Source: Buxus sempervirens
Taxonomy: Eukaryota; Streptophyta; Magnoliopsida; Buxales; Buxaceae
Direction: 5' to 3'
NCBI GenBank assembly: GCA_947561395.2
Contig: OX387185.1
Span: 16,828,366-16,892,365 of the forward strand
DNA: 64,000 nt
Shown: positions 8,848-48,939 of the stretch, piece after piece
Position numbering within the stretch: position 1 is the stretch's first letter
How the letters are laid out: every line of letters starts with the position of its first letter
Made by a program: the position numbers and the translations under genes
Notes under the pieces: model-generated
What the model saw: only the letters and a program-made list of their open reading frames with translations
What the model was told of the DNA's origin: nothing
The model's database searches: none

Positions 8848-8864
8848 CCGCAAAGAGGGGCAGT
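8848..8864 (+). other. Polypurine tract (plus-strand primer) of element A
   Basis: CCGCAAAGAGGGGCAGT directly abuts the TGTAGACACC start of the 3' LTR, as expected for the plus-strand priming site. The same tract precedes the 3' LTRs of B and D. Confidence 0.8.
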
Positions 8865-16888: not shown

Positions 16889-17032
16889 TTAACCGACAAC
16901 TCAGGTCGGTTAAACAGAGTTTTATTCGTATCCGACACACTTTATCGGTTACAAAGGCCTATGCGTGTATCCTGTCATTTATATCGGATACAATGAGACA
17001 TAGCCTTAGCCGACATTTCATGTCAGATACAT
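16889..17032 (+). repeat. Internal array of four palindromes
   Basis: Four palindromes lie well inside the leader, away from any LTR. The first has arms TTAACCGAC and GTCGGTTAA around aactcag, the same loop as palindrome 1 of the LTR but with both arms changed together. The others keep TATCC/GGATA-type arms with some mismatches. No TATA box is evident directly beside it. Confidence 0.7.
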
Positions 17033-17360
17033 GCAGAAAATGTGCAAATTGGTTTTTCAGCCCAAATTTTCAAAATAAAATGCCTAAAACACTGTGGATA
17101 ATCCTTAGGCACCCCAAAGAGAATATAAAGATGTTTCAAAAATAAATAAATAAAAATAATAATAAAATATTCTTTCAGGATTTAACCTAATTTTGAAATT
17201 CATGAAGGCAAACTAAGATGTCATATTTTTTGATACTAATTCAATTCAAACAAGTTTCAATCAAGCTCTTGAACTTGAAAACTGAGAAAATTCAGCAACA
17301 AAAAAAAAAAACCTTTGGTTGGATAATTTTTCCAATCAAATTAAAACATTTGTGGGACAC

Positions 17361-18366
17361 TTGGAAGCCCTAGAATATTCCAAGAAACCTTTGGTTGGAT
17401 TTTTTTCCAATCAAATCAAAAAAATTTTGTAGGACATTTGGAAGCCCTAGAATATTCCAAAAACCTTTGTTTGGTCACAAGAACCAATCAAATCAAAAAA
17501 TTTGTGGGACATTTGGAAGCCCCAGAATATTCCAAAAACCTTTGTTTGGTCACGAGAATCAATCAAATCAAAAAATTTGTCGGACATTTGGAAGCCCCAG
17601 AATATTCCAAAAAACCTTTGTTTGGTCACCAGAACCATTCAAAATCAAAATTTTGTGGGACATTTGGAAGCCCCAGAATATTCCAAAAAACCTTTGTTTG
17701 GTCACAAGAACCATTCAAAATCAAAATTTTGTGGGACATTTGGAAGCCCCAGAATATTCCAAAAACCTTTGTTTGGTCACGAGAATCAATCAAATCAAAA
17801 AATTTATGGGACATTTGGAAGCCCCAGAATATTCCAAAAAACCTTTGTTTGGTCACAAGAACCATTCAAAATCAAAAATTTGTGGGACATTTGGAAGCCC
17901 CAGAATATTCAAAAAACCTTTGTTTGGTCACGAGAACCAATCAAATCAAAAAATTTGTGGGACATTTGGAAGCCCCAGAATATTCCAAAAAACCTTTGTT
18001 TGGTCACAAGAACCATTCAAAATCAAAAATTTGTGGGACATTTGGAAGCCCCAGAATATTCCAAAAAACCTTTGTTTGGTCACAAGAACCATTCAAAATC
18101 AAAAATTTGTGGGACATTTGGAAGCCCCAGAATATTCCAAAAACCTTTGTTTGGTCACGGGAACCAATCAAATCAAAAAATTTGTGGGACATTTGGAAGC
18201 CCCAGAATATTCCAAAAAACCTTTGTTTGGTCACAAGAACCATTCAAAATCAAAAATTTGTGGTACATTTGGAAGCCCCAGAATATTCCAAAAACCTTTG
18301 TTTGGTCACGAGAACCAATCAAATCCAAAATTAGTGGGATGCTTGGAAGCCCTAGAATATTCCAAG
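17361..18366 (+). repeat. 75/76-bp tandem repeat with a 378-bp higher-order unit
   Basis: TTGGAAGCCCCAGAATATTCC recurs at 17361, 17438, 17513, 17588, 17664, 17740, 17815, 17891, 17966, 18042, 18118, 18193, 18269 and 18343. Two monomer types alternate: 75-bp A (cacgagaaccaatcaaatc) and 76-bp B (cacaagaaccattcaaaatc). From 17513 the order A-B-B-A-B repeats exactly twice, 378 bp each. All three plus frames stay open for hundreds of residues because the monomer lacks stops; I do not regard these as proteins. Confidence 0.93.
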
Positions 18367-18548: not shown

Positions 18549-20556
18549 ATGAATACTGAAGAGGATCAAGCTCAAGCTACCGTACCTGCTCAGGGCTTTG
18601 CTCAGCTGCAAGAGCAAGTGGCCGGATTGGCCAAAATGCTAGGAGACCTACTGGCGGCTCAGGCCCAAGCCCAAAATCAAGCATCAACTTCCCATCAAGC
18701 ACCGCCCCCTCAAGCCTACATTCCGCCTCCGGCTCAACCCATGCCTGAGCCCATCTCTGAACTTGTCCCTGAGCCTATTCTGATCAGGGAAAATATTGTG
18801 GAGTACGAGAAAGAAGTGGAAAAAGAAAAGCTAGAGAGGAAATGGAAAGAAAAATGCTACACAAAATAGAGAGGATCCCGGAGGAACTCAAGGAGGTGAA
18901 GGGGGGAAACAGCTACGGAGGCACCACCTTCGACGACCTGTGCATGTACCCAGATGTATGCTTACCGGCCAAGTTCAAGTGCCCGGACTTTGATAAATAC
19001 GATGGCACGGGCTGCCCAATGAGCCACTTGAAACTGTACTGTGGGGCTTTGTGCCAGTTTGGCAGGGATGACGGCATACTGATTCAACTCTTTCAGAGAA
19101 GTTTGACAGGGTCAGCCTTGAGGTGGTTTGCCACGGTGGACCACGGAAGGATCAGAAGGTGGAAGGACCTAGCCGATGCCTTCTTGGACCAGTACAAATT
19201 TAACTCTGAGATCGTGCCAGACCGGTACGACATGATGAGGATGAGCAAGGGGAAAGATGAGTTTTTACGGCAGTATGCCAAGAGGTGGAGAGAGGCTGCC
19301 TTCCAGGTCAGGCCGCCTATGCTGGAACCAGAGATGATCTCAACGTTTGTGGGCACACTGGGGCAACCCTTCTACAACCATCTGGTGGGGCAGATCACCA
19401 CCAATTTTGCAGCCCTGGTATAGGGGTAGACCGAATCGAGGAAGGGGTCAGGTCAGGAAGGCTCATTGACTATTCTACTTTAACTGGGCAATTTGATTCC
19501 TCCATTTCCCTGGCACAGAAGAAGGGAATTGGGTTCAAGAAGAACAGAGCCAGGAAAGAAGGGGAAGTGAACCTGGTACAAGCTCCTCCTGCCAAGAAAC
19601 CACTCCATGTCAACATATCTGCACCTCAACAAGCCCAGCAGGCCCAGCAGTTGTACCAAGCCCCACTTAATGTCAATTTCTCCCCCTCCGTGCCAGCAAA
19701 TCAGAGGAGGGCCTTTACCAAGGAAGAGAAGGATGCCTGGATGGCAGCAAGGAGGAACAGAGTTTTTACTCCCCTTCTTGTGTCTCTTTCCCAACTGTTA
19801 CCGACCTTGTTGAAAGGGGAGTATGTAACCCTAAAAGAGCCCAACCCAAATGCCTCGAAGGGGAGGAATTTTGATCCAGCAATCACTTGTGACTATCACA
19901 TGGGTGCATTGGGGCACTCTACTGACACTTGTTGGATGCTGAAGCATGCGGTCCAAGACCTGTTGGACCAGAAGGCCCTGGTTTTCAATACTGCTGCACC
20001 TGCCACATCAGGAAATGATATTGGGCAGAACCCTCTGCCTTACCACAATGGGGCAGGCCCGTCTAACTCCATTACTACCATATCCACCACGAGAAGGGCC
20101 TTTGACCCATCTCAACTTATAGCTTCCGTGGGGACCTCGGTCAAGGACCATTTCTTCCAAGAGAAAGAAGAAGAGGAGGTCAATATGGTCTCCCAGAAAA
20201 ATGATAATACTGCTAAGGACATTAGCTCCTCTCTGAACCGGGTCTCCTCCCTCATGGCCCAAATAAATATTGCAAGGCCTCCTCTGGTCTTTAATTGCGG
20301 TTCACCCACCTGCTCTCCAGCCAAGCCACCAAAAGCTCCCTTGGTCATCAACCTGGACCCCACCACCGCCTCCATCACCTCTTCAATTCCATCAGCCCCA
20401 TCTGGGTCCAAACTCCAACCCATGGTTGTAAACATTCCTGCTTCCTACAGTGTCCCTAGACCGGCCCATACATCCCGGTCCAAACTCTGGCAGTTGGTGG
20501 TCAATGTCCCTAAACTAGCCTATTCTGATGCAGCTGTACCATGGAATTACAGCTAG
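18549..20556 (+). pseudogene. gag of element B, two frameshifts
   Basis: The ATG at 18549 begins MNTEEDQAQATVPAQG, followed by a Gln/Ala-rich coiled segment and a Pro-rich stretch. A frame change near 18840-18867 leads into the core domain (FKCPDFDKYDGTGCPMSHLK, LTGSALRWF, WKDLADAFLDQYKFN), typical of Tat/Ogre gag. A second change near 19415 leads to the C-terminal part, ending at 20556. That part has a CDYHMGALGHSTDTC motif similar to the zinc-binding motif of Ogre gag. Gag would build the particle and bind genomic RNA. The breaks make this copy non-functional unless it is rescued in trans. Confidence 0.85.
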
Positions 20557-20855
20557 GGGGGTCACGGCTACAGTTCCAGTGGTCAGAAACCAGAATCAGG
20601 AGTAGGTGAACCTTATGACGAGGTCGGGAAAATGTGTGGAAGGAGTACAGAAAGAAAAAGAGACAGAGGTGGAGAGAGAGAGAGAAAAGAAACAGAACAA
20701 AAGAGAAAAGTGAAAGAAAAAACAAAAGTAGGAGAAGACACCCCTAGGGTGCAGAAAATGAGGCATCAGACCTTATAAAAATAAAAATAAAAAGTGAATT
20801 CAATCTTGTGGATTAGCTGAACAAGGTCCCGGCCCAGATTTCAATACTGGGCCTT
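20557..20855 (+). other. Non-coding spacer with polypurine stretch between gag and protease
   Basis: About 120 bases (20640-20760) are almost all A and G, followed by AT-rich sequence with several stops. Ogre elements are known to carry a non-coding or intron segment within gag-pol; whether this one is spliced cannot be told here. Confidence 0.5.
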
Positions 20856-21551
20856 TTGCTGAATTCTGAAAAGCATAGGGACGCATTTTTAAGGGTGTTA
20901 CAGAGTGCACATGTATCCCAGACCATTGATCCGGACCAACTAGGCAAAATGGTTGGTCAAATCTTGTCACATAATGTGATAAGTTTCTCCGAAGGTGAGA
21001 TAAGCCTAGGTGGGTGTTATCATGTTGACCCTTTGCACATCACAGTGCTTTGTAAGGGCAGTATGATCGCACGGGTTTTAATTGACAATGGGTCGGCGTT
21101 AAACGTCTGCCCGCTAATCACTTTTGTCAAGCTTGGTCTGGATCAGTCGAAGATCAAGCAAAATGGGAGGCTAGTGAGAGCTTTTGACAGCTCTAAGACA
21201 CACTCCCTAGGGAGGCCGTGGATACACTCGGCTAGGGCAATACCATCCATGCTCCACCAAAGGGTGAAATACATAAGAGGGCAAAGGGTGATAACAGTCC
21301 TAGCTGAGAATTTGGTGCCTCCCATTGTGTCACCTGATGTACCCTTGATAAATGTGGACTTAACTGTCGACAAGATTGCATTTCACTCATTTCAGTTTGA
21401 GATGGTTAATTTCATACCTGGGGGGTGTGAGAAAAAAAAAACAAACTACTGCCGAGAAAATGGTGAAGAAAGTGATGCAGAAATACCACTTTCACTCGGG
21501 GAAAGGCCTGGGAATAAATTTGTAGGGAATGGTGGAGCCAATCAGGGCTAA
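20856..21551 (+). pseudogene. Aspartic protease region of element B
   Basis: The frame contains VLIDNGSALNVCP with the catalytic Asp at 21084-21086. The D-N-G-S form is usual in Tat/Ogre proteases, where Asn replaces Thr or Ser of the common D-T/S-G. It is followed by the flap region. The enzyme would cut the Gag-Pol polyprotein in the particle. The upstream start is uncertain because the frame is separated from gag by stops. The end overlaps the next frame by about 20 bases, showing a frame change. Confidence 0.8.
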
Positions 21552-22676
21552 GAAACTGGTTCCTAAAGTAGGGTTGGGGTTTAAACCCAGAGGCTGGAGG
21601 AGGATGAAGCATGAAGAAGGAGAGAACAGAAGCAGAGGAAAAATCCCTCATCTAAGGGACAATTTTCCAAAACCCTCATGTATAATCCAACTATCTCCTC
21701 CTACGGACCAATCCAAACCCCCGTACCAAAACATCAACCCATACCAAAAGCCTTCTGTTCCGACCCTGCAGCCCTATAAGCCATCTCCTATGCTTGGAAC
21801 ATTGGGCGGGCCTGGGCCACAGCCCGGGCAGCAGGTGGATTTCTCCGAAGATGTCGGTGCATTCTTCGCCATGACTGAAGGCGAAAAGATAGTTGGTGAC
21901 AAGGAGCTGCCATTCATTGACTGGGCAGCAGTGAAGATTCCAGATGAGGTCATATCTGGATTGGGCCTCGTAGCAAAAAAGGGCAATACCCACCCGGTGA
22001 TGATGGCATCGGATTCTGGGTTTGAGGAGCAGGCTTGCACAATTTCCCCTGCTCCTGAAAATTTTATATTGAACAATTGGGAGGAAACTCCTCTTACCTT
22101 TGAAGCAGCGTTTGTTCGGCAAACTGACGCGGCTTCCAAAAAAAAACTCTAATAGTGGAATGCCATTTCCCTGAAGGTTCTAATGAGCCTTCGTCTTCAG
22201 GGGAGTTATATTTAGAAGGCTCACAAAAAAACCAAAAAGATTTTTCTATTTTTCTAGAAAATTTAATTTTTTCAAAAAGGTCCAAACCACTTATGAACCA
22301 TATAATCAAACCGAATTGGACCAGGTTGAATATGACTTCGACCTTGAGCTCGACTTTGATCTCATGGGGATCAAAGAAGAGACCGAGATCGAAGAAGAAG
22401 ACGTTCCAAAAGAAATTGAATATCAATGGGAACGTCATGAAAAGGGGGTCCAACCTAATATTGAGGAGACCATTTCAATAAATCTTGGGACTGAAGGTGA
22501 CCCAAAAATAGTGAAAATTGGGGCATGCCTATCTAATGTGCAGCGTGGTGAAATGACACGATTCTTGGCAGACTACAAAGATGTATTCGCTTGGTCGTAT
22601 CGGGACATGCCGGGGTTGGACACTGACATGGTGGTGCACAAGTTGCCAATTTTGCCAGGCGTTAAGCCAATTAAGT
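21552..22676 (+). pseudogene. Protease-RT linker and RT N-terminus of element B
   Basis: Three successive frames cover this segment: to 22152, 22155-22481 and 22316-22678. The first carries a Pro-rich linker ending in VRQTDAASKKKL. The last carries FLADYKDVFAWSYRDMPGL and VHKLPILPGVKPIK, the conserved lead-in to the plant gypsy reverse transcriptase. A TAG stop at 22676-22678 follows, probably a changed Gln codon (CAG or CAA). Confidence 0.75.
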
Positions 22677-22678
22677 AG

Positions 22679-23461
22679 AAGCTGAGAAGATTGAAACCTG
22701 AATGGACTCTAAAGGTCAAGGATGAAGTGGTCAAGCAATTTCAAGCAGGATTTCTGGCAGTCTCCACATACCCCGAGTGGCTCGCAAACATAGTGCCAGT
22801 ACCAAAGAAGGACAGGAAAGTCAGAATGTGCGTAGATCACAGAGATCTGAAGCCGAAAGGATGATTTTCCGCTTCTACACATCGACATCTTGGTGGACAA
22901 CGCTGCTGTACATAGCCTGTTCTCATTTATGGACGGCTTCTCTGGGTACAATCAGATCAAGATGGCTAAAGAAGATCAAGAGAAAACAGTGTTCATCACA
23001 CCTTGGGGCACATTCCACTATACAGTCATGCCATTTGGGCTTAAAAACGCTGGGGCAACATACCAGCGGGCCATGACCGCACTATTCCATGACATGATCC
23101 ATAAGGAGATGGAGGTCTACGTGGACGATATGATTGCCAAATCATGCAAAGAAGAGGACCACTTGATCAATCTGAAGAAAGTGTTTGATCGTCTCAGGAA
23201 GTACAGTCTACGGCTTAACCCGGCTAAATGCGTCTTTGGGGCTACATCAGGAAAGTTGCTGGGATTCATTGTAAGCAGGAGAGGAATTGAAATTGACTCG
23301 GCTAAAGCCAAGGCCATAATTGAAATGCCATCACCCAGAACAGAGAAGGAGATTAGGGGCTTTCTTGGAAGAATTCAATATATAAGCCGGTTCATAGCAC
23401 AGCTCATTGCTATTTGTGAACCTATTTTCAAGCTTCTAAGGAAAGATAACCCGACGGTCTG
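22679..23461 (+). pseudogene. Reverse transcriptase domain of element B
   Basis: After a frame change, the main frame from about 22890 shows FMDGFSGYNQIKMA, VMPFGLKNAGATYQRAM, the YVDD catalytic motif (23118-23129) and LNPAKCVFGATSGKLLGFIVS. This is the palm of a Ty3/gypsy reverse transcriptase, which copies genomic RNA into DNA. A TGA at about 23460, after NPTV, occupies the place of a conserved Trp codon (TGG). Confidence 0.88.
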
Positions 23462-24401
23462 AAATGAGGATTGCCAGCAGGCATTTGATACAATAAAGAA
23501 GTATTTGCTGAACCCACATGTACTAGTACCACCAACTCCAAGAAGACCTCTGATCCTGTACTTGTCAGTGTTGGAAACATCGATGGGATGTGTCTTGGGA
23601 CAGCATGATGAGACCGGTAGAAAAGAAAGGGCAATTTACTATCTAAGTAAAAAATTCATAGAATATGAAGCCAAGTACTCACCGTTGGAAAAGACTTGTT
23701 GTGCTCTAGTGTGGGCGACTCAGAGGCTAAGGCATTACTTCCTTAGTCACTCCACATTATTGATATCCTGGATGGATCCTCTGAAGTATCTATTTAAGAA
23801 GCCGGCACTAACTGGCAGAACAGCAAAGTGGCAGTTACTACTATCTGAGTTTGACCTCACGTACATCACTCAGAAGGCGATCAAGGGCCAAGCCATAGCT
23901 GATCACCTGGCTGCACATCCTTTGCAAGAATACCAACTTTTGAAGACCAACTTTCCTGATGAGGCAATTTTGTTTACTGAAGAGGAGGAAAGAGAGAGTT
24001 CTTGGCAGATGTTCTTCGATGGGGCCACCAACATGAATGGAAATGGAATAGGGGCCGTCTTGGTCAAACCAGATGGTTCACATATCCCGATCGCAGTCAA
24101 GTTGAGATTCCAGTGCACCAATAATATTGCAAAGTATGAAGCATGTATAATTGGGTTGCAAGCCGCCATAGATCATGAAGTAGAGGAACTTGACGTATAC
24201 GGAGATTCGAGTCTTATCATCTTCGAAACAACTGGTGAATGGAAAACCAAGGACCACAAATTGATCCCCTATCACCAGTATTTGGAAGAAATAAGCACAA
24301 ACTTTACTCGAATTTCCTTCAACTATATGCCAAGGGCCAAGAATCAGTTCGTGGATGCTCTAGCAACATTGGCTTCCATGATCAGCATGCCAGAGGGGTA
24401 G
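23462..24401 (+). pseudogene. Dual RNase H region of element B
   Basis: The first half carries the gypsy RNase H (LILYLSVLETSMGCVLGQHD, EAKYSPLEKTCCALVWA), in which the usual first catalytic Asp appears as Ser. The second half carries an additional archaeal-type RNase H with MFFDGATNMNGNGIGAVL (Asp at 24018-24020), NIAKYEACIIGLQAA and LDVYGDSSLI. A second RNase H is a known hallmark of the Tat/Ogre lineage. The domain removes the RNA strand during reverse transcription. The frame is open but is cut from its neighbours by a stop upstream and a frame change downstream. Confidence 0.85.
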
Positions 24402-25734
24402 ACATCAAACCACTAGAGATTGAGGTCAGAGATGAACCAGCTTATTGTCTTGTTCTGGAGGGAGCACCAGAAGAGGAAATACCATGGTTTCAAGATATCA
24501 AAAATTTCTTGAACAACGGAGTTTGCCAGAAAACGCCACTTCTACTAAGAAGAGGACAATACAGAGATTAGCTGGTCAGTTCTTGCTAAGCGGTGGACAC
24601 TTGTACAAGAGATCACATAATGACATTCTGCTCAGGTGTGTTGCTAAAGCTGAGTCAAAAAGGTTGATTGAGACTGTACATGGAGGAGTCTGTGGACCCC
24701 ATATGAACGGACACATGTTTGCAAAGAAGATCCTGCAGTTGGGATATTATTGGTCGACGATAGAACATGATTGCTGTATACATGTCAGGAGGTGTCATCA
24801 ATGTCAGATATATGCAGATAACAAGCATGCACCCCCAAGTGAGTTGCACAACATGTCATCACCATGACCCTTCTCTATGTGGGGCATAGACGTCATTGGC
24901 ATGATTTCCCCTAAGGCATCGAACGGACAAAGATTCATCTTGGTGGCAATCGATTATTTCACTAAGTGGGTAGAAGCAGCCTCATATGCGAATATCACAA
25001 GCAACCATGCTATTAAATTTTTGAAGCACAATATTATTTGTCGCTATAGACTGCCAAGTGCCATAGTATCAGACAACGCTTCAAATATTAAGAACAAGGA
25101 TATGAAGAAGATGTGTGAGTAGTTTCAGATCACCCACCACAACTCAGCTCCATAGAGGCCAAAGATGAATGGGGCAGGGGAAGTAGCAAATAAGAACATA
25201 AAGAAAATCATTCAGAAAATGGTGGTAAGTTACAAGGATTGGCATGAAATGCTGCAACTTGCTCTACATGCCTACAGAACCTCAATCCGGACTTCAACTG
25301 GGGCAACCCCGTATTCCCTGGTCTATGGGATGGAAGCAGTTCTGCTAGTGGAAGTAGAAATCCCATCGCTCAGAGTGCTCATGGAGGCTGAATTGGAAGA
25401 AGTTGAATGGATACAGTCAAGAAGTGATCAACTCAACCTAATAGAAGAGAAGCGATTGAAAGCGCTATGTCATGGCCAATTGTACCAACGGAGAATGACC
25501 CGGGCCTACAATAAGAAGGTGAGGCCCAGAACTTTCCAAGAAGGAAACCTAGTTCTAAAGAAAATTCTACCATTTTTGGAAGACCCTCGTGGTAAGTTCA
25601 AGCCGAATTGGGAAGGGCCGTATGTCGTCAAGAATGTCTTATCAAGAGGTGCACTCATCTTGATAGAAATGGATGGGACAGATTTTCCTGAGCCAATTAA
25701 CTCTGATGCAGTAAAAAGGTATTTTCCTTGAGTG
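24402..25734 (+). pseudogene. Integrase of element B, interrupted
   Basis: The His-His-Cys-Cys zinc finger (VHGGVCGPHMNGH ... CHQCQ) lies at about 24678-24810. The catalytic triad is visible: Asp 24889-24891 (WGIDVIG), Asp 25072-25074 (SDNASN) and Glu 25180-25182 (GEVANK), with the canonical D-x60-D-x35-E spacing. The C-terminal part (PFLEDPRGKFKPNWEGPYVV) ends at 25731. Stops fall at 24865-24867, 25120-25122 and 25153-25155. There is no chromodomain, as expected for Tat/Ogre. The enzyme would insert the cDNA with the 5-bp duplication seen at the element's ends. Confidence 0.87.
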
Positions 25735-26721: not shown

Positions 26722-28437
26722 CTAGTCTCTGTCTCTTAGCCGCTTCTCAAGTTCCCGAATCCGAGCTGCCTGAGCTGCAATAACTCCAGAAGCCCCCTCT
26801 ACATTGGGATCACTCAAGAAAGAAATGACCTCATCTGAAAGGGTCTGCTTGATCCTCATGCTCCTGAGGCTGGTTAAAGCATCCTGGTGCTTCTGCCTCA
26901 GTGCTCGGACTTCAAAGCAGCGAGCCTGCCTCTGCTCCTCAAGTTGCTTTTCCATAGCAAGACGGCGGGATACCTGCTCTGCAAGTTGCCTCTCCACGTT
27001 AAGGCCTTGTATCCTAAGCTCCTGGGCCTCTCGTACCCATATCTGCTGAAGTCGCTTGTGAGAAGCTCTCTCGGACTCCAGGATGTCTTCAGAAGTAGGA
27101 GCCAAAACTGCAGAAAGATCTTCAGGTACTGGAGCCTGACTCTGTATCTGCTCCTTGATCTAGAAGAGATAGTCCTTCACATGGGACTCTGAGAAGACCG
27201 GGCTCCGCATAAAACGAACATAGGACCACTCCCTCATCAACCAAGCATTCAGCTTCATGGTGGCTGGTGAAAGTGGCCCAAAATGGTCCTCATATCCACT
27301 TGGGATTATAATCCCTTGGGTCGCTCTAAATTGACGAAGAACCCGCAAAGGTAAAGCACAGCATGTCCCAAGCCAGCCAGGACCAAAAAGTTGCGGTCTC
27401 AAAAGCTGATCACCTCTGCATTGGGCTGATAAGTACCAGGCCACCTCACCTGGTCATCCTGGAGTGTAGCCAAGAAAGTAAACCAGCCCTGTTTACCTCC
27501 TGAAATGTCAGGACACCCCCGATTGCTCATCAAAATAGGAACCTTCAAGCTCGGGAAGAAGTGTCGATTGATTTCCTCAATCTGACTCAGGTGGTCAAGT
27601 AGCCAAAGCTGCAAAGGAGGAGGGATATTTCAGTATATTGTAAAAGAAAAAAAAAAGAAAAGCAAGCAAAAAAGAACAAAAGCAAAAAGAAAAAAAAAGC
27701 AAAAAAGAAAAGAGGGAGGAAATTTTTACTTGCAAGATTGGGCCACATGATAGGAAGCGCTTCTTCTTCTTGTAATAACAGTCAGTCAAAGCCTGGTAGA
27801 TCTCCGCCAAAATCATAGGGGCCAATTTCTCCTGCTCCCTAACCTGGCATATAACTGAGATAAGGGCCAAGTCTACCTCATCATCATCTCGTGGAAAAAG
27901 CAGTTGGTTAACCACTATCAAGGTCAGGGCATTGAACCTGGTTTCCTTGTTCGCCCCCCTCAAGAGCTTCTCAGTCAGAAAAGACTTGGACAAAGTCAAA
28001 AGAGTGTCAGAATCCCCTAAATCCTTCTTCCCTATGCCTAGGAAAGTAGAAGCCTCTTTCTTGTAACTGGGCTTAAGGGGTGGGTTCACTACCTTCTCTA
28101 CAAACCTCAAACCCAGGATAGTCTCAACCTCCTCAATGGTGGGGGTCATCTCATGGTTTCCAAAACGAAAAAGGTTTAGGTTCGGTACCCAATGGCCAAT
28201 CATGGCTTCAATAATTTCCCACTTGAATGGGATGGAAGGGATAAGCAAAGTGTGGCCTAAATGAATAGAATCCCATCTGATCTCTTCATCAAGGGTCATG
28301 GAGTTGACCCACCTAGTGTAGAATGAATCTACAGGGTTGTACCTAGTGAGATTAAGGGGTTTTGCTCTAAAAGGTTGTTTTGCAGGGGAGGCTGCGTGGA
28401 CAGACAATGGTAGGGCAGAAGATGATCCGGAATCCAT
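26722..28437 (-). pseudogene. First antisense gene of element B, DUF7745/PMD-like
   Basis: Exon 1 (27730-28437) starts MDSGSSSALPLS and encodes 236 residues, including TRWVNSMTLDEEIRWDSIHL, IGHWVPNLNLFRFGNHEMTP and TIEEVETILGLRF. This resembles the plant DUF7745 family, related to the plant mobile domain. A minus-strand intron (27609-27729) has GT and AG ends and keeps the frame. Exon 2 continues with GCPDISGGKQGWFTFLATL. A frameshift follows near 27395, a stop at 27160-27162, then an in-frame coiled-coil tail ending RIRELEKRLRDRD at 26722. It has its own promoter at about 28548. Its role is unknown; related proteins are linked to transposons and silencing. Confidence 0.75.
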
Positions 28438-28546
28438 TGGAGGTGATGGGAGCAAGCTAAGAATCAATGGGAGGAAGAAAAAGGCGAAAAAGGGGTTTTC
28501 TAAACTCAAAAACTCGTAAAAAATACGCAAATCCCGAGGCTGGTTG

Positions 28547-28705
28547 CATTTATAGCATTTTTTAATGTATCCGATATATCAGATCGGATACAAAAGAGTC
28601 TCTTCATACCCGATAAAATATGCCGGATACAAGGGGATGTTAATGTATCCGACATATCATATCGGATACAAAGAAATATCAGTGTGTCCGATCTGATATA
28701 TCGGA
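28547..28705 (-). promoter_or_regulatory. Promoter of the first antisense gene: TATA box and four palindromes
   Basis: The minus strand reads GCTATAAATG (plus 28547-28556), about 110 bases upstream of the ATG. Directly upstream lie four palindromes, among them 28566-28592 (TGTATCCGAT and ATCGGATACA) and 28644-28670 (TGTATCCGAC around atatcat). It is the same promoter design as in the LTR and the second antisense gene. Confidence 0.72.
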
Positions 28706-28908
28706 TATAAAGAAAAAATGCAAAAAAAAAAAAGAGAAAATGGAGAAAAATCCGAATTTTTTACTTGTTTCATTGTGTACAAGTTATAATTGCATGAAAT
28801 TGAAAAGAAAAGAGAGCCAGACAAGAGAGAATAAATAAAAAAGTTTCTTTTCATATATAAACAAGTCTTTTTGTACAAGGATAAGGAAAAAATGAAAATC
28901 CTAATCTA

Positions 28909-31722
28909 CTACTCCTGTGCAGGATCACCTCGGTGTCCTCTGCCCCGTCCTCCTCTGCAACCTCTATCTCGAGATGGCCGACGACTAAAGACATGGGAAA
29001 TGATACGCGTGGCAGCATGGCGAGGTAACCAACTCACAACGGATTGGATCTGATACTCCAAGCAATACTCCGAAAGGTCTGAAGGCGGGTCAGGAGCAAA
29101 ATCTGGGGAGGAAGCCCCGGGCTCAGCAGGAACGAGCTCAACTGGACCACCAGCCGTACCGGTCTTCGCTCCCGCAGCTCCAGAAGGCCCAGCAATAGCA
29201 GAAGAAGGGCCGGGAACAGAAATATCTGGGCCAATAGAAGAAAAATCAGAAATTGAGGCATCCAAATGAACCAAGGAGATGAAACTAAAGAAAACTTACC
29301 AGGGACCTCAGGAGCAGGATCAGGAGCCGCCATAGGGGATGAAGTGCCGGCAGGAGGAGTAAGAACTGGGTCTGCAACCGGGATGTCTACAGGATCCACG
29401 GGAGCCCCAGGATCCGCAGGAGCGGCATGTGCAGGAGATGCAGATGGATCAGGAACAGCAGCTGGAGCATCCTCGGGATCAGAAGCCCGAACCGGAGACA
29501 AATCAGGAGCCGGAGGATCTGGCCCAAAGGCAGCATCATGATTTGGAATGGGATCCTGCAAAAGTCAAACAGTCATATCAGAATAGCAGAAACATGGAAA
29601 TGAAAGAGATGAAATTATAAAGAAACCAGATACCTGTCTAGCCTGAAGCTTAGCGACCAGAGCCTCCAGCTCTCTGATCCGAGCATCCCTCTGGGCCACG
29701 ACTGCGTCATGCTCTGCGATCATATCATCCACTGCGGTCCGCTGACTCAGGAACCGATCCCAGAGAGCATTCAACTCATGTACCTGCCAATAAGAACAGA
29801 ATTAGAGTCACAAGTACAGAATTGAGGGAAATGAGATAAAAGATAAGGATCATGAAACTCACGGTGTCATCGTGTACCCGGATATAGATCCCGCCGATCT
29901 CTGTCACTCCAGCACGGGTGGGTCGATCCATCAAGCACCCAATAGATACTCTCTGGATCCACTCGTCGTAATCCCCAGCTACTGTGAGCTCCTCCGCATC
30001 CTGATACTGGTCAAACTGGCCAATATCAAAACTATGTTGGAGCGTGTCAGGACCCATAGAAGGAGGGGGAACGGGGATACGAAGTGTGCCTGTGTGTTGA
30101 TAGTACAGGCGCTCTCCTAAATACATCACCCTCCCAAGCCTCCCAAGGAAGCACTGGTAGGGTTGATGTCGGAGATCTCTATCAAAAGCATCCTGTACTA
30201 CCATCTCACGGGCCACCCCAATATCCATGTCATCAAAGCGTGCCAAGATGAGCTGCAAAGAAGAAAAAATGGTCAGATACCATCAAAGTACAGGAAAAGA
30301 AATAAAAGGGAAAGGGGCAAAGAATTTACATCGGATCGTCAGGCACGGTCCAAGTGAACCTAAGCAGTGTGGGGCTGACTCCTATCTGCGTCTCGGACCT
30401 GGGCTGACCACCGCAAGGCAACGGGGAACTCCGTGACACCAGGCACTGGGGATGGGTGGAAGAAAGTCATGTAGGTATACATAAACACCTGGCAAAAGAA
30501 AAATCAGTCAGGGATAAAGAAGATATAGCCTAAGAAATAAGACAGGACAGATGAATTTAATATCTGCAGAATTTGCCAAAAGAACCGGCAGCTAACTCCA
30601 TCACCTCTCGGAGCGGCCAGGCCCCGAACTACCCGGCATAGCCCGGCCAAGATGGTCCCATATATAAGCCGACCCCATGCTAGCTGGCGGGTCTGATGGA
30701 AATCTCGCAGAGCATCCAAAAATAGGGGACTAACACTAGTCTTGTCCTAAAAGAAGCAGCTCCCGAGCATCAGCAGAAACACATGTCGGAAGATGGGTGC
30801 AAAGGCTACATCTTCCACTGTGACGGTTGCATGTCTCCCCTCATAATGCCGAGTAAGGCTCTCCCGCAGTCAGCTAATGGAGATACGACCACTCTGCCCG
30901 TCCCAAGCAGCATGAGGCAGGTCCTGATAGCCCAAGAGAAGGCCAATTTCCGCCACTGAAGACCGATCCAAAACAATAGTCCACCCCATCAGAGGAATGC
31001 CGGTGATCATCACAAAATCGGAGGGGCGGATCCCCAACTCCACATCCTGCAGATGGAATGACTGCGTCTCCGGAAAATATCGCTCCATCATAGCGAAAAT
31101 GAGGGGATGGTCGGCTCAGAACGAAGGGATGCTGAGAAAATAATCCAAGTGGCACCTGCCAAACTCACGCCTAAGTGTCGGGGAAAGCGTCTGCACCAAC
31201 TCACTAAATCTCCCCCAACTGCCTCGCAGATGAGAAGGAGGATATGGAAGAGGCACATTGGCCCGGATGCACATGGAGGGGTGGCTATCCAAACCACTAA
31301 GGAGCTCTGTATCATGAACAGACGCTCTCAGCTCCGCAGAGACCCCTAAGCGTAAGGCTACAGCAGCACCCTCCTGGCCTGAAGCTCCGGCCCGGCCTCG
31401 GCCCCTCTCTCCGGCTCGGCCTCGACCCCTCTCACCAACTTGGCCTCCACCTCTCTCTCAGCCTCCACCACGGCTTCGAACAGGATCAACAACAGGCTAA
31501 AAGCAGAAATGAATAAGTGAAGTCGGTTTCAAGGGAAGCAGGGAAAGGAAGAAGAAGGATTGGGAAGCCTACCTCAGTAGAGCCCTCAGCGGAGCTCTCT
31601 CTGAAATCACCTAACGACTCTGACAGGGTGGCGCTAGAACTCGCCTCTGTCCGAGCCCGCGAGGTAGAGGGCTGATCAGCAAGGTCAGCCTCCTCCCGAA
31701 CACGGGAACGACTCCTAGCCAT
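28909..31722 (-). pseudogene. Second antisense gene of element B, PMD type (copy 2)
   Basis: Exons are 31573-31722, 30564-31496, 30330-30488, 29863-30252, 29634-29783, 29300-29555 and 28909-29225. They sum to 2,355 nt (784 codons plus stop), and introns 1-5 are all phase 0. The product order is an MARSRSRVREE start, an Arg/Gly-rich segment, plant mobile domain, an ILARFDDMDIGVAREMVV region, a coiled coil (RIRELEALVAKLQARQ), a Pro/Ala-rich stretch and an Arg/Gly-rich tail (CRGGRGRGHRGDPAQE). Stops lie at 31116-31118, 30870-30872, 30747-30749 and 30339-30341. The exon 2 donor is AT instead of GT (30562-30563). Host PMD proteins MAIN and MAIL1 act in silencing; an element role is inferred only. 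Confidence 0.85.
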
Positions 31723-32349
31723 CTACAAGTAACAGGGAAGTGTTTCAGTTCAAATTTATCCTACTTTACTTATCAGGAATTTTACCTTGCTTTTGGCCTA
31801 GGTTTCGGTTCATCGGGAATCTTACAGGATATTTTTCAAGTTATCATGAATTGTGTTCTAAGGGAATTTGCATTTATTTTTGTTCTCTGTTTCAGTTCAA
31901 GGTTTTTATTTCTATTCTGGTTCTACAGCTTCTTGTCCTAAGGATATATACAAAGGCTTAATATCTGCTAATCTATTTCAGGGCTCATACATGAAAGCAG
32001 GACAGTGGTGCAAAAGAAAATGGTTTTAGCTAATCAAAGATCAGAATAAGCTGTGGAACCCAAGAACCAAGCAGAGAAAAGTTCTGGCAGTCGAAGCACC
32101 ACTTTAGTCAAAGAAGAACAAATCATAGCCTGGCATTCGAGTATGCAATTTTTCACCACAATTCAAAAACCTGGGAAAATCATGCAACTCAGCTGGAAAA
32201 TGTCGCAGGCAAATTAAAAAAGCAAACCACAGCATGGAAGACAAAGCAAGCATGCAACAGCAAGAGCAAAGTGAATAAAGAATTTATAGTGGTTCAATGA
32301 TCGAAACAAGATTTGCAGAATTCTAAGCATATAAATTAATAAAGAGGCA

Positions 32350-34812
32350 TGTGCGCACCCCATTTTGGGGCCACACGACGAGGTGCATGAAGAAGTGATG
32401 CTCGCCTCGGGACTGGTTTGGAGTGGCAACTGCCTGAGAGGTGCAGGCAGACACAAAAGGGGCACCTATTCGGGCCTAATTATTCTGGTCTGCGGCTTAT
32501 TAGAGTTCTGAGTAAGTTCTCGGTTACGTCTAGGGAAGCCCGAAGACACCCTAGCCCGCCCCGTCGATTGACAGGTCCCGTGGGTCTCCTTGGTTTGAAT
32601 CAACTTTAGTTTTCACCCAATTCCTAAGCTAGCATGCACACTTATTTAGTCTAAGTGGGGACCATTGATGGTGTAGGTTCCCCTTTTATTTGATTTTATC
32701 TTTTCATTATTTAGTGAAGTGAGTCGGTTACGGGCCCTATTGGAAGGCCTGTTGGGATCCAAATTGGGCTTAAGTCAAGCCCAAGGCCCAATTCGGGTTA
32801 TTGGGTAACCCTTGTTGGATTATGGCTATTTGGTTTAAGGGTTTATTTATATTTACAAAGTTAGTGGGTTGAAGTTTTTTAGGGCCCAATGGGCTTGGAT
32901 TTGGCGCAATGGCAATTTAATCATGTGGCCTTGGGTCCATTTTTTCAAAATGGGTCTTGGTTGGGCCAGATGGGATGTGGGCCCTATTGAAGGACCCAAG
33001 AAGCCTTGGTGGGCCCACTTAGGCACACAGTCTCAAAATGGGCTTGGAAAAGTCCAGGAAGCCCAATGGGTCAGATCATGCAAAAATGGGTCGGATTAGG
33101 TCCAACCGGGTCAGAAAAATAGTTTTTTAAGTCACTTTATCGAGTGACCGTATTTAATTCACGGTCTGGTCAGAACCGTAATTTTAATACGGTTCAGGCC
33201 AGACCGTAGATTAACTACGAGCACGCCTGGACCGCCCTGAGTATACGGTTTCTGCTCAATTTCGCCGTTTTGCTCCGATTTTGCTTGGGATCCATTCCGT
33301 GTTTTTTTTGGAACTTTCTATAGCATCTGGGATAGTTCCTCTGCCTTCATGATTTGTAATTTACTTCAAATATCCTCCTTTTGAAGCATTTGTTGATGAA
33401 GCCTTCTCTTTTCCTCTTTTTATCAAGTCATTTCCCATCTCATCTTATGGTATTTAAAAGAAAGGATAGGGGGAAAGAATATTACAAGGGGTAAATTTGC
33501 ATTAGCAAATATAGTTTAAGCAAAACATATCCTTCCTTTGTTCTTTTTGTTCATTTTATGGGTCCACCTTCCTTTTCTTTCACAAATGGACACTCATTTG
33601 TGTGGGAGAATTCCAGCAAGAGTGAAACAAATAGGTTAGTAGAAATGTAAAAAGATAAGAGAAAAAGATACAAAATTGAATGAGGAAATGCACATGTATA
33701 TTGAAAAAGAGATGGGAAACATTACCAAATTACAAGTTCCTTTTTTGGAGGATGTTGGGATTCTCAGGGAATTTCAGCAGTGCTTCTGCGTCTCCTTGGG
33801 TTTCCAAATTGGGTTTTGAAAGGGGTTCTTTGGGTTTTTCTATGCTTAAAGGATGAAAGGGAAGATTTAAGCAGAGCCTAAGGGCATTTTGGACATTTTT
33901 TCGGGTTGGCAAGGTTCCGGCAAGACTTGGGCAGGGGTTGGATGCAGAAGAGTCGAGGAAGGAGAGGGGGAGCAGTTCAGGGGACTGGCTTGTTGAAATG
34001 AGGGGGTGGCCTCTCTATTTATAGGCAAAATTTTCGTGCCCGTATTTGAAGTACGGGCATGCCTTGCCCGTACTTCAAGTACGGGCGTGCTTTGCTCGTA
34101 ATTCAAATACGGGCGAAAAACGCACATTTCCAAATCTCGCAAAATCGGCCGTACGGGATGCGTGTCCCGTCGTACAGCGACACGCGTCCCCTTCTAGAAG
34201 CTCGCCCGTATTTGAAATACGGGCATGCCTCGCTTGTACTTCAAATACGGGTCAGCACGTTTTTTAAATGCTGGATTTGAAACACTTTATTAAATTTGAT
34301 TTTTAAACGGATTTTATTCGATTTTAATGATTATTATATTAAAATATCTTCAGATATTTATTAAAATATTATTAAACAATTATTTTATTTATTTTATTCA
34401 TTTATTCTGCCTTTTTGCTTCTGTTTTGCCACATGGGCAGTTTTCTTGAAACTTCAACTGCCCATAACTTCTTCATTCGGTGTCCGATTTCAGCAAACTT
34501 AGTGTTGTTGGAACCGACTCAGAATCACCTATCCACTGGGATCAAGTTTGGCAGCTGAATTGGGGTTGAGCAAAAAGTCAACTTTTCGCTCCCCAAAAGT
34601 TTGACCAACTCATAACTTTCTCATCCGGACTCTGATTCCAGCAAACTCAGTTGCGTTGGAACCGTGTCAAAATGCTCTTTTTAATGAGATGAAGTTTGAT
34701 GGTAAAATTCACTTGAATCAAAAGTCAATTTTTTAGTCCCCTCAGGGTTTGACTTTTTAATTGAAATTTTCATTTTCTTCATTTTTTGGGGTGCAAAAAT
34801 CAGGTGCTAACA
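32350..34812 (-). mobile_element. Solo LTR of a third family in the PMD copy 2 intron
   Basis: It starts TGTGCGCACCCC and ends AGGTGCTAACA, with perfect target repeats AGGCA (32345-32349 and 34813-34817). Copy 1 shows the empty site. Read on the minus strand it begins TGTTAGCACCTGATTTTTGC, a start common in Tat-type LTRs. Its TATA box is TATAAATA (plus 34016-34023, minus strand). There are no internal genes. Confidence 0.88.
34038..34251 (-). repeat. Palindrome array GCCCGTA...TACGGGC upstream of the LTR TATA box
   Basis: At least five palindromes lie immediately upstream of this LTR's TATA box. Those at 34066-34086 and 34204-34224 are perfect over 21 bases with a single central base (arms GCCCGTACTT and GCCCGTATTT). 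Others are at 34038-34058, 34094-34114 and about 34231-34251. The sequence is unrelated to the Ogre palindromes but the position relative to TATA is equivalent. Confidence 0.85.
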
Positions 34813-35561
34813 AGGCATCAGAAGGCAAGCTCGCTCCAACAATCATTAGAAGGTAGTAGTACAAAAAGGCAAACAAAGATTGTCTAAAAATTTTGGGAAA
34901 AAATATGACATTACAATCAGATACAAGCAATTGTGAGATTCAGAGAGTTCATGTTCACCAAAAACATTCAAACTCAAGGTTTGCAGAAATTCAAGAATGG
35001 AGGAAATTGGGAACAAAGATGCCACTCAATGTCAATTTCGACAGGAACAGTGGGGAAATGGGCAGCCGGTTACAAAGGCCAATCAACAACAATAGAGGAA
35101 GATTATAGCATGATAAAATTTCTTGGATGTGGCAATTCGGTATATAAGATATGCAAGAAAAAAAAATTTCGCTTGATGGTGCCGAGTTGCACTTACTGTT
35201 CGAGTGGCAATGGAAAAATTTTCGCCTGATTGCAAGCAAGGTCGGATTGCCAAAGCCAAGATGAACTCCCCGAAGCTTGTGCGAAGGCGTTGAGCAATGA
35301 ACCGTCGGTAGGAGAAAATGGCCGAAATAAGGGCTTCGTCCCAACAGGAATCAAAGAAGTTGCCGGAATTAATGGCAATCACCGGAGTTCGCAGGAAGTT
35401 GCCGGAGTCAATGGATGCTCGCCGGAAATAGTGGGAGTCGCCGAGGAGCCACCGGAGAAGAAGGAGGAGCAGTCGGGGACGAAGAGAAAACAAGGGTATC
35501 CGGTCTGAGTGTTCGGAGGAGAAGAAAAGAAGAGGAAAAGTCGCGGTCGCGCGTGACTTAT

Positions 35562-35636
35562 AAAAACAGGTGTATCCGAGAAAGCATATCGGATACAAAG
35601 AGAGCTCTTCTTATTCGACGTGTTACGTCGGATACA
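35562..35636 (-). promoter_or_regulatory. Promoter of PMD copy 2: TATA box and two palindromes
   Basis: The minus strand has TTTTTATAAG near plus 35557-35567. Directly upstream are palindromes at 35571-35597 (TGTATCCGA and TCGGATACA with one mismatch region) and 35610-35636 (TTCGACG and CGTCGGA). The layout equals that of copies 1 and 3. Confidence 0.68.
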
Positions 35637-36174: not shown

Positions 36175-38693
36175 TGTAGACACCCCAAATTGCACAGTAA
36201 AAATGAAGAATAATTGGCAAAAATCATTATCTCCTTTGAAACCAGCACAAAATTTGAGAAAACAAGCTTTTTCCTTGTATCCGACAACTCAGGTCGGATA
36301 CAAGCATATCCCTTTGTATCCGACATAAGTTGTCGGATACAAGTAGACCTTAATGTATCCGGCAACATATGCCGGATACGTATAGGTGCACGTGTATCCG
36401 ACCTGACATGTCGGATACATGCTTTTTGCTCAAAATTAGGGTTTTCCGAGAGTTTTCACTTTTTACCATCATATCCTTCATTAAAAGAGTGGAAATCTCG
36501 GAAATAGCCTTAGGGTTAAGGTTGGTGGGCTTTAGACATTATGTTGTGTTTACCATCCCACCAACCCTAACCCTAGCCTTTGACTATAAATAGGAGGCTC
36601 CTCCTTAAGCAAATGGCCATTAACTCTTGCCAAGAACTTTTGCCAAGAAGTTGGAGATCAAAGATCTCCGAGTGAAGAGGGGAACCGCTGCAGTCTTGCT
36701 TCCAGAAACCCAGGTAAGCCTCAAACCTCTCTTTATTTTTCTGTTTTTACATTCTAGATCTAGATCTCTTCTTCTACCTTTCTGTAGAATAAGGCCTCTT
36801 CTATGTGTGTGAAAAACCTTCCCCTATTCAAAGTACCTCGAGACTCCCCCTAGCCGTAAAACGTGAAGGCGGGATCTAGGGGAAACGAGACTGGGGATTG
36901 ATCCTACTATTAGAACCCATTTGAATAAGCCTTTTGAATCTACGAAAACCGTTTCATATTCAAAGTACCCCAAGATTATCTTGAAGAACCGTGTTTAACG
37001 TGGAGAGAGAACTAAGGGAAACGATAATGGAACGGAACCCTAGGTTGTTTTAGAACCCCATTGGATTGATCTAAATGCATGCTATATGTTGTTATATTGT
37101 TCTTGAATGGATTTTTATACACATACACACATAGCACTTGTTGTGTCAGATTTGGCTTGTATTTTGGATCTATTGCCGTCATTGTGGTAGATCTGGAATA
37201 AAAAGCCCCAATCAAATAATTCTGGAATATTTCTTGTTGGTTTTCAATATGATTTCAAGTAAGTTTTGTTGAGTATTGAAGGCCTCTAGGTCCAACCTCT
37301 CGGTTTTGGGCATTTTTGCTCACTTTTGGGGTTTTTGGCATATCCTTTCCAATCGGAGAGGATGGTGAGCCAAACTTGTGCCCCATTTCTTCATAGAGGC
37401 TCTTCAATATCTTTTGAAAGTGATTTTGATTCATCTTGCACGGAATACACACACTTGGTCACTATTTTAAATTGGTTTTACTCAAAAAATGATTAACTTG
37501 ACAGCAACTGTACCCCAACTTCGGACACTCGTAACTTCATCGTCCGGATGAATTTTGGAGTTATTCTAGAGCCATGGGAAAGGTGGGGCTGTCTAGTTTA
37601 TATCTGTAAAATTTCATTAATTTCTATCTAGCGGATGTTTGAAACCTCTTTGTCGAAGTTGATAGGTCATTTCAGGTCTGATTATAGAACCTGTCACTTC
37701 GACTGAGCGCCATGTGTTCGTTTTAAGTCCAATTCAAGTGATTCTTGTTTCTGAGTTTTCCTTTGGAAGTCTAGTTTCAAATACAGTTAGTTTCATAATT
37801 TTATGACTCTATTTGTGTCGTGGGTAGCAGATTTACTCAGAACTGCTCAACAACACTTTTCTGGGTTAATCTGTGATCCTCGGGGCCTGTTCGAGAGATC
37901 ACCCAAGGCACATCCGAATGAACTTTTTTATGAGGCTAGTTTCATTTGAAAGATGGCCATATAGACTTCATTCACACCAAATTTCATGGATTTATATAGA
38001 ACCGATTTTTCTAAATGATTTTCCAAAGTTGCCCACTTATCACTTTTAATTATCTCCAGCAGCAGATTTCAAAGGAGAATAACTCCTAGGATTTTAATCG
38101 GAATGGATTGAAAATTTGCATGAGTCTTCTATCTATCATAATCTTTCAAATGAATTTGGTTTGATTCAATTTAAATTGGATTTGGATGATTTCAAGACAA
38201 ATGGTTCTTGTTTTTACTAATTTGTCCAGATTTAACTCAACTTGGTTTTGTGCAACTTTTGCTTTGATTTCCATCTTTTGGTGATATTCTAGAAGTGATA
38301 ATGACATAAAAGAGGATCTGGAATTCGTTTGGATTTTCGTGTGAAGATATCATACATTTGTCCTTTTTCAAGGTTTTTAATGAATTTTAGCAAGTTTTCT
38401 TATTTTTTTTTAGCATGAACAACACTTGGCAAACACCTTGTGTGGGTGAATGGGGGTGCCTAACACCTTCCCCCGTTCATAATCTAATCCCCTTACCCAT
38501 CTCTGGATTTGATTTTCAAGTAGAGTTGTTTTTACTCTAGTATTTGCCTTTTAGCTCTTTTTGATTATTTTTGAATCTTTTGGTGTCCATTCACACCCCA
38601 AAAACTGAATGGTGGCGACTCTCCCACATTTTACGTTGAGCCCGTGTGTTGACGGAGGGGAAATCATCCCGGAAATTTTTCCCATGTCTCACA
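36175..38693 (+). mobile_element. 3' LTR of element B
   Basis: This 2,519-bp LTR runs from TGTAGACACC to GTCTCACA and is followed by the target repeat CAATC. It contains four palindromes (36274-36419), the telo-box-like motif, TATAAATA at 36585-36592 and the splice-donor-like CAGGTAAGC near 36711-36719. Palindrome 3 is perfect here (GTATCCGGC and GCCGGATAC), while the 5' LTR copy has one mismatch. Confidence 0.92.
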
Positions 38694-39108
38694 CAATCCA
38701 AAATATACAACTACCAGATACAAGAAAATAAAACTCTAGGTGGGACGGTAGTAATCCTCCTCTCTATACCCTGGTGCTTTCTCCTTTCCTCTGTCCCCAA
38801 TCCGGTCCTTTGCACCGGACGTCGACGGCTCTGAAAACAAAACCAATAAAACAACTTATGAGACTAATGTCTCAGTAAACAACACATGAATGATTGATAA
38901 AACACAGTTCATGCTAATATCATTCAGTATAAACCATGGCATGCGGGTAGTTGAAATGCTAGTTAAATCATCAACAATTTAGTGTAATACAATTGGTGTA
39001 GTTTTGTGCTTACGTGTACAAGTCTAGCAACAAAGATCTCACACATAAAGTCGTATGAAGTTATTACCTAGGTGGTTTAATACATATTGCACATGACCCC
39101 ATCTAACT

Positions 39109-46296: not shown

Positions 46297-46729
46297 TGTA
46301 ATACCCAAAAAATTTCCAGAAATTTTAATTAAATAATAATCAGTATTTTATTGTGGATTTTATTAATGGATTGTAATTAAATATATAGGTGATCACATTG
46401 ATGAAAGAGATCAGGAGTTTGATGCACATCCAACTGTTGGATCATGAAATAAAGGAGTAAGTATTAATTTAAGTCTATTTGCTAATTTGATTGGTTAGTA
46501 GTATAGGATTTAATGGAAGGGAAATACGTGGAATCATGAGATTAAAAATAGGGTTTTATTAAGTGAGTATACGACTAATCAATCGTATACCTACTCATTG
46601 TATTCTCTTGCGGTTGAAAGTAGAAGAAGAGAAGAAGCGAGAGGAGAAGGAACAAACCTTGGAGCTTTGCTGTTTTTGAAGTGTTCTGCATCCCAGGAAG
46701 AGTCTTGTGTTACTGTAAAGGGAGAGATC
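46297..46729 (+). mobile_element. LTR-like fragment with a perfect GTATACGA palindrome
   Basis: It starts TGTAATACCCAAAAAATTTCC, resembling the sense-strand 5' edge of chromovirus LTRs. It contains perfect 8-bp arms GTATACGA and TCGTATAC (46567-46590) around an 8-base loop. It is interrupted by Del-right at 46730. Confidence 0.5.
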
Positions 46730-47274
46730 TGTAACGCCCCGGATCCGCATTGTTCATTAAAGATATAACACGTCTCATAGAGGGTTAGGTAAGGATCCAA
46801 ATAAAAGTGATCCTGGATAATCACGCAATTAATACCATATCAGAGTGCACAATTAAATTCTTATCTAAGAAGTCTAATATAATCTTCAAATAAAATCAAA
46901 TGGTTCCAAACAACTACCTTATTTCATTTCCCAAAACAAATGTATCAAAGTTTCAATCTATAATAAACCTACTAGTCTATGGATGATAGTAATAGTCCTC
47001 CTCTCTATATGTGTTAGTCGGATCTACCCCAGAAGGTGCCTCACCACGAATATCTGAAAAACAAACAACAACGAAGGAATGAGATACGAATATCTTAGCG
47101 AGTAACATATGCATGAAAAAATAGTTATCCACAGTTATAAACATGCTTTGATAAATAACCAACCAATAAACAACCATAGTACCGATAAATCAACGAAAGG
47201 TAAATGTCATGCATATTAATTAAATTGGTTAATTTACATGCCAAGGAGACACTCCACACCTCCATGTACACATT

Positions 47275-47395
47275 TTCGGCCTACTCAGGGTATTGGACAT
47301 TCTGAAATGATGGCTTACTCAGGGTATCGTCATCCAATGCCGGCCTACTCCGGGTATCGGCACTGAAAACCAGGCCTACTCAGGGTATTTGGCTG
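47275..47395 (-). repeat. Stem-loop array with GCCTACTCAGGGTAT loop, copy 1
   Basis: Four units share the loop. The best stem is CAATGCCG/CGGCACTG (47335-47342 and 47358-47365), with one position that becomes a G-U wobble in the sense (minus) RNA. The unit at about 47307-47332 pairs ATGA with TCAT; the outer two are weaker. Confidence 0.75.
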
Positions 47396-48912: not shown

Positions 48913-48931
48913 TTCTCCCCCCCTAAAAAAA
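48913..48931 (-). other. Polypurine tract of Del-right
   Basis: The minus strand reads a purine run ending AGGGGGGGAGAA directly against the LTR start TGTAAAATCCCG. This fixes the element's orientation. Confidence 0.85.
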
Positions 48932-48939
48932 TTTTGTCC

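Follow-up and report, generated by a model that had tools for sequence, protein, structure and literature searches.

Introduction

Genes with a plant mobile domain (PMD) are found both among host genes of plants and in transposable elements (TEs). Extra open reading frames (ORFs) with this domain in Ogre/Tat elements are reportedly described in a 2011 study by Steinbauerova, which others cite for them; Grande elements are said, from the title of a 2013 paper by Gomez-Orte, to have an accessory gene with its own promoter; and a 2025 article in Nature Plants is reportedly concerned, from its title, with PMD protein-DNA motif modules counteracting Polycomb silencing. PMD domains occur in 57% of Ogre elements (Neumann 2019, PMC6317226), and the PMDs encoded by Gypsy elements form the clades PMD-A1 and A2 (PMC5418596). 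Moreover, antisense ORFs between pol and the 3' long terminal repeat (LTR) are characteristic of Retand elements (Vicient 2025, PMC11963269). Here we analyze a stretch of 64,000 nt from Buxus sempervirens (contig OX387185.1), referred to below as the window, in which a large retrotransposon, element B, carries two antisense genes related to PMD; it was compared with copies A and D of the same element family, which also lie inside the window.

Two further systems are relevant to what such genes might do. The VANC protein binds short motifs in tandem repeats in the non-coding parts of its own TE, and causes methylation loss (Hosaka 2017, PMC5735166). On the host side, in main, mail1 and pp7l mutants the genes that are lost have the DOWN promoter motif in common (PMC7156037, PMC9899485), and where host pmd mutants fail to silence a subset of TEs, lower MORC1 expression is the most likely cause (PMC9899485). 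In addition, TE PMDs have been proposed to be counter-silencers (PMC8616336), and phased small interfering RNAs originate from PMD genes in tea (PMC10673657). In short, the literature already has Ogre-type elements with PMD ORFs, antisense genes that have a promoter of their own, and TE PMDs as counter-silencers, and TE-encoded PMD proteins are present in many Ogre elements.

Our reading of the locus, to which we give a probability of about 0.38, is that the element encodes a PMD protein/DNA-motif module that would act on the element's own promoters, being similar to VANC and the host PMD-motif modules rather than a mimic of host MAIN/MAIL1-PP7L. We regard it as the best reading because the promoters have one symmetric motif in common and the element also has a conserved, regulator-like gene.

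Two antisense genes of the PMD family

The element and the genes in question are the following.

13019-38693, + strand: element B, with two LTRs and a flanking 5-bp target site duplication (TSD), CAATC
31722-28909, - strand: antisense gene 2, PMD protein, seven coding exons
31722-31573, 31496-30564, 30488-30330, 30252-29863, 29783-29634, 29555-29300 and 29225-28909, - strand: the exons of gene 2
28437-26722, - strand: antisense gene 1, DUF7745/PMD protein, two exons
4237-7489, - strand: copy A of the PMD gene and its upstream region, from self-comparison and exon mapping
62059-64000, + strand: copy D of the PMD gene, in the inverted element D; exons 1-4, then the window end

A preliminary description of this DNA had placed two genes antisense to gag-pol between pol and the 3' LTR of B, one of them a PMD gene of seven exons, and had seen the latter in the same antisense place in A and D. 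Both genes are indeed present in that place on the opposite strand, each with Pfam matches, the seven coding exons could be mapped, and A and D keep the PMD gene at the position it has in B, copy A being cut inside exon 7 by an insertion. That insertion occupies 175-4236.

Gene 2 has six introns of 74-79 bp each, and its protein matches PMD (PF10536) in B (E 5.8e-15, 55.8 bits) and in D (E 2e-14, 53.9 bits), with a cut-off of 34.9. Gene 1 is composed of a stop-free exon 1 of 236 codons (28437-27730), a GT..AG intron (27729-27609) and an exon 2 (27608-26722) that holds a frameshift and stops in B; with X placed at the stops and the frameshift, its product matches the Pfam family DUF7745 (PF24924; E 2.1e-24, 86.7 bits, cut-off 26) and also PMD (E 5.2e-15, 55.9 bits). 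The profiles thus place both antisense genes in the PMD superfamily. When the two proteins were compared directly, the match was weak (E 0.007 over 59 residues), and their kinship is argued from the shared PMD profile. Heptad-like stretches were recognized by eye C-terminal to the PMD domain in both proteins, in exon 5 of gene 2 and at the C-terminus of gene 1, with coiled-coil profile matches that were sub-cut-off only. No protein relatives at E 1e-3 or better were found among the 8000 candidates scored per search, in a database probably poor in plant proteins; a PDB sequence search with the D PMD protein returned 0 matches up to E 1, and a literature search for papers naming DUF7745 found none.

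The B copy of gene 2 has decayed: six in-frame stops interrupt it, and the donor of intron 2, which is GT in A and D, is lost. Gene 1 is known from the B copy alone, as the DUF7745 genes of A and D would fall outside the window.

Selection on the PMD gene

The ratio of non-synonymous to synonymous substitution rates (dN/dS) was estimated pairwise in the coding frame, dropping codons with a gap or stop in either copy. It amounted to 0.25 for A-B (714 codons, including an exon 7 that is partly misaligned and gives 1.37 over 53 codons), 0.20 for B-D (529 codons) and 0.19 for A-D (523 codons), the latter two spanning exons 1-4 only, with upper bootstrap bounds of 0.32, 0.28 and 0.24, respectively. 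As a frame control, the same alignment columns read in the other two frames gave values of 0.82-1.88. Moreover, third codon positions differ approximately three times as often as second positions (exon 7 left out), and gap lengths divisible by three account for 3/6 (A-B), 3/4 (B-D) and 3/7 (A-D) of the gaps in exons and for 0/5, 0/4 and 0/3 of those in introns. Exons are somewhat more alike than introns (identities of 0.828 vs 0.790 in A-B, 0.897 vs 0.866 in B-D, and 0.849 vs 0.728 in A-D), and therefore the signal of constraint resides mainly in the codon structure.

Altogether, the substitution pattern indicates that the PMD gene was under purifying selection in the source lineage before decay, that is, that it was a working gene, the ratio being about 0.2 among A, B and D. 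As each comparison includes neutral decay after insertion, constraint in the source lineage was presumably still stronger than measured. This bears directly on the notion that antisense genes and arrays are functionless passengers kept by copying, for which it can be said that every copy in the window is broken. We consider it highly improbable, in view of the frame-controlled ratios and also of two features presented below, a core-promoter block common to three copies and a regular spacing of motifs with unrelated spacers.

A phased palindrome array at the LTR and antisense promoters

A palindrome of 27 bp, TGTATCCGA-N9-TCGGATACA, recurs in the element in arrays at 39-bp spacing. The arrays, which are given without strand, and the TATA box of gene 1 are located as follows.

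13120-13263: B 5' LTR, 4 units, 39-bp spacing, upstream of the LTR TATA at 13429
16888-17031: B leader, 4 units, 39-bp spacing, the first unit with 5 arm mismatches
28566-28709: gene 1 promoter, 4 units, 39-bp spacing
28548-28554, - strand: TATA box of antisense gene 1 (TATAAAT), 11 bp away from the palindrome array
35571-35636: gene 2 promoter, 2 units, 8 bp from TATA
36276-36419: B 3' LTR, 4 units, 39-bp spacing, ~165 bp upstream of the LTR TATA
8241-9110: copy A, pre-LTR array 8241-8303 (2 units, 36 bp apart) and LTR array 8967-9110 (4 units)
59714-60584: copy D, LTR array 59714-59857 (4 units) and pre-LTR array 60519-60584 (2 units)

Counts were set against 40 dinucleotide-preserving shuffles, with mismatches counted over the 18 arm positions. 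At up to 3 arm mismatches the window holds 26 units (shuffle mean 0.05, largest 1); at up to 4 it holds 29 (mean 0.175), all 29 of them in non-coding parts of A, B and D; and at up to 5 it holds 32 (mean 1.275, largest 7), the three added units being one that completes the leader array and two in gag-pol that are probably there by chance. The half-site GTATCCGAYA alone has 24 exact matches, with 0.07 expected, and all 10 distinct intervals in B equal 39 bp. The TATA box and palindromes that had been noted upstream of each antisense gene are thus present, the latter far beyond chance; the palindromes in the LTR and the leader are additional sites, absent from the preliminary description, whose end at 35636 coincides with the outer edge of the gene 2 array. 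In viral and prokaryote contigs the exact form of the palindrome, with Y/R at one position per arm, had 0 matches, which shows only that it is uncommon there.

Many LTRs use host factors. A host transcription factor could accordingly read the arrays and switch the LTR and both antisense genes together, while the PMD proteins act elsewhere, in chromatin, nuclear import or integration; the same data on array location and spacing fit this possibility, and Grande, which belongs to the same broad lineage, has a nuclear accessory protein made from a promoter of its own (title; PMC11963269). In our judgement, however, single host-factor sites are usually shorter and less regular than a 27-bp dyad repeated every 39 bp, and within the window the arrays are confined to the A/B/D element family, so that we hold a host reader to be rather unlikely.

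The way in which the arrays have diverged is informative about what was kept in them. Between the arrays of B (14 units, leaving out the 5' LTR as a duplicate of the 3' LTR) agreement is 82% in the arms, 46% in the centres and 34% in the spacers, and values within arrays lie within one percentage point of these. As arms and spacing are kept while the spacer sequence drifts, the arrays do not look like fresh tandem duplications. Among the LTR arrays of A, B and D, divergence is 0.25-0.42 in the spacers (36 positions) and 0.08-0.11 in the arms (72 positions).

The spacers of the LTR arrays (36276-36419, 8967-9110 and 59714-59857) diverge ~2-5x faster than the arms, at a constant length of 12 bp.

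Each unit can fold a stem of up to 9 bp, and all four array locations lie inside the sense element, as would be expected if the palindromes were RNA hairpins of the sense genomic RNA, serving packaging, stability or export, with the antisense genes as a separate matter. Several observations speak against such hairpins: the arm sequence itself is kept, and not pairing alone; where arm positions of the 14 units fail to pair, mismatches of the G-U type (5) are no more numerous than those of the A-C type (8); and two arrays lie 8-11 bp from antisense TATA boxes. Hence, we find this explanation quite unlikely.

Promoter region of antisense gene 2

Upstream of gene 2, three features were delimited.

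35518-35562, - strand: core-promoter-like block of gene 2, with TATAAG (35562-35557), a GC-rich palindrome and a pyrimidine patch; common to A, B and D
31723-35196, - strand: probable 5' untranslated region (UTR) intron of gene 2, donor GTAAGT at 35196, acceptor TGTAG abutting the ATG
32350-34812, no strand: later insertion of 2.46 kb, TG..CA, TSD AGGCA, absent from copy A

In the antisense direction B shows, in this order, the palindrome array, 8 bp, TATAAG, the GC-rich palindrome and the pyrimidine patch. Identity among A, B and D is 81-85% over the array and core block, and 53-64% over the following 318 bp. The 5'-UTR intron is likely, judging from its donor and acceptor sequences: the donor is common to A and B and changed in D, and the acceptor stands before the ATG in A, B and D. 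The insertion within this presumed intron is probably a solo LTR.

Weighing the proposed module

In the module that we favour, one or both PMD-family proteins would bind the palindromes, probably as dimers, since a site of two-fold symmetry fits a dimer and a heptad-like stretch is present in each protein. Through binding, the promoters of the element would stay transcribable despite host silencing: the LTR, whose array lies ~165 bp from the TATA, would be activated, and the antisense promoters, whose arrays lie 8-11 bp from theirs, would be controlled in the same way, perhaps in a feedback. A fuller version of this scheme, in which the two antisense proteins read the 39-bp-phased array at each recognized promoter, keep these promoters out of heterochromatin and time sense versus antisense transcription, and in which host modules were domesticated from such circuits, is tentative and, taken as a whole, somewhat doubtful.

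The preliminary description had read the antisense genes as encoding mimics or competitors of host silencing proteins. What stood of this is that the element encodes intron-containing antisense genes of the PMD family, that the PMD gene was under purifying selection, and that A, B and D have core-promoter-like sequence in common; that the proteins would mimic MAIN/MAIL1-PP7L or compete with it is a conjecture. That element proteins relieve silencing generally in this way would be consistent with their belonging to the same Pfam family as the host proteins, and with the proposal of TE PMDs as a counter-silencing strategy (PMC8616336). However, the host PMD effect on a subset of TEs is most likely exerted via MORC1 expression, which weakens a simple mimicry model, although other TEs are not explained in that manner (PMC9899485); Gypsy-borne PMDs fall in separate clades (PMC5418596); and mimicry leaves the palindrome arrays unexplained. 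We consider it unlikely, and a motif module at the element's own promoters fits better than a competitor, because the host defects in a subset of TEs most likely arise via MORC1 and the dependent genes share a promoter motif.

A number of points weigh against the module acting on its own promoters. Firstly, we infer that the palindrome reader is an element protein, and a host factor is its main rival; AlphaFold models of two stop-free exon pieces, computed without an alignment, reached mean pLDDT values of 43.6 and 42.9, too poor for showing a DNA-binding fold. Secondly, the selection estimate comes from three copies in one window and covers the PMD gene only; all three copies are broken, A and D each having stops of their own. 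One gene 2 stop is common to B and D and could mean that the gene died before the two split, which is disfavoured by the dN/dS of 0.20 between them. Thirdly, the arms of the LTR arrays do not clearly diverge more slowly than the LTR around them (0.06-0.18), the spacers being the faster part, and the stretch 35199-34960, past the 5' UTR and the 318 bp following the gene 2 core block, is more alike between A and B (87%) than the core promoter is (82%), other pairs giving 62-65%. Finally, one array interval in A is 36 bp; the leader array stands apart from any nearby TATA, the closest + strand TATA-like word outside it being TATAA at 17124, 93 bp beyond; and the host PMD-linked motif example DOWN, compared in one letter form, CATGCAGTTT, is absent from the window.

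Structure, age and lineage of element B

The remaining parts of element B are listed here.

13019-15135, + strand: 5' LTR, TG..CA, TSD CAATC at 13014-13018; from self-comparison with the 3' LTR and its flanks
36175-38693, + strand: 3' LTR, TATA at 36585, TSD CAATC at 38694-38698
18549-25731, + strand: decayed gag-pol, ORFs in broken frames with Pfam domains

In self-comparison the LTR pair is 97.3% and 96.1% identical across two blocks. The Kimura two-parameter (K2P) distance of 0.032 corresponds to ~1.2 million years at a rate of 1.3e-8. About 400 bp of the 3' LTR (37709-38110), also present in the LTR of A, are missing from the 5' LTR at 14553. In the leader, a tandem repeat of ~76 bp in many copies extends over 17306-18365, between the palindrome array and gag.

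Pfam domains in gag-pol are Retrotrans_gag, RVT_1, RT RNase H, a second RNase H (RVT_3) and Integrase_H2C2, in the typical Tat order. RT_RNaseH followed by RVT_3 lies within one ORF (23463-24401), which gives the second RNase H (aRH) of the Tat lineage; Integrase_H2C2 follows downstream (24436-24867) just below the cut-off (E 2.7e-5, 24.6 bits vs 25.5), and no match to the integrase core was obtained. With two LTRs, TG..CA ends and a 5-bp TSD as further Tat-lineage traits, element B is classified by its domains and borders as a Tat-lineage (Ogre-like) retrotransposon. Its size, LTR length and PMD point tentatively to the Ogre subclade.

Elsewhere in the window, a further set of related repeats, most of them strongly negative in GC skew, lies at 46729-56880 and contains no palindrome unit at up to 5 arm mismatches.

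Comparison with known systems

In a limited literature search we found no published description of a palindrome array common to LTR and antisense promoters. The shared array is a concrete candidate target, and makes the role of the PMD proteins testable. If the proposed module is real, it would be a sequence-specific anti-silencing system for retrotransposons, and it may offer a possible origin for host PMD-motif modules.

Element B resembles Ogre/Tat elements in the second RNase H of a Tat-type pol, in a PMD ORF, in its very large size and in its large LTRs. It differs from them in its tandem PMD-superfamily genes, its PMD gene of seven coding exons, and the palindrome arrays linking LTR and antisense promoters, features for which no counterpart was found in the excerpts of PMC6317226. 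With Retand/Grande it shares an antisense gene between pol and the 3' LTR, and an own promoter has been reported for Grande; the genes are PMD/DUF7745 here, whereas TRP28 is found there, and B is much larger. In a term search of the Vicient 2025 excerpts (PMC11963269), PMD, mobile domain and intron did not occur, and palindrome occurred nowhere but in the title of a reference.

The host MAIN/MAIL1/PP7L proteins share with the element's genes the PMD family and a protein-linked promoter motif. These are, however, host genes with a different motif, and a PP7L partner is not known for the element proteins. Finally, VANDAL is a DNA transposon, and VANC, which belongs to another protein family, had its action demonstrated by chromatin immunoprecipitation (ChIP) and electrophoretic mobility shift assay (EMSA), whereas here a corresponding action is one that we infer. 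Nevertheless, the likeness to VANC/VANDAL is evident in the distribution of the motif, whose repeats are concentrated in the element's non-coding regions (29/29 at up to 4 mismatches, with 2/32 in gag-pol at up to 5): short motif repeats in non-coding parts, together with an element gene of its own that could read them.

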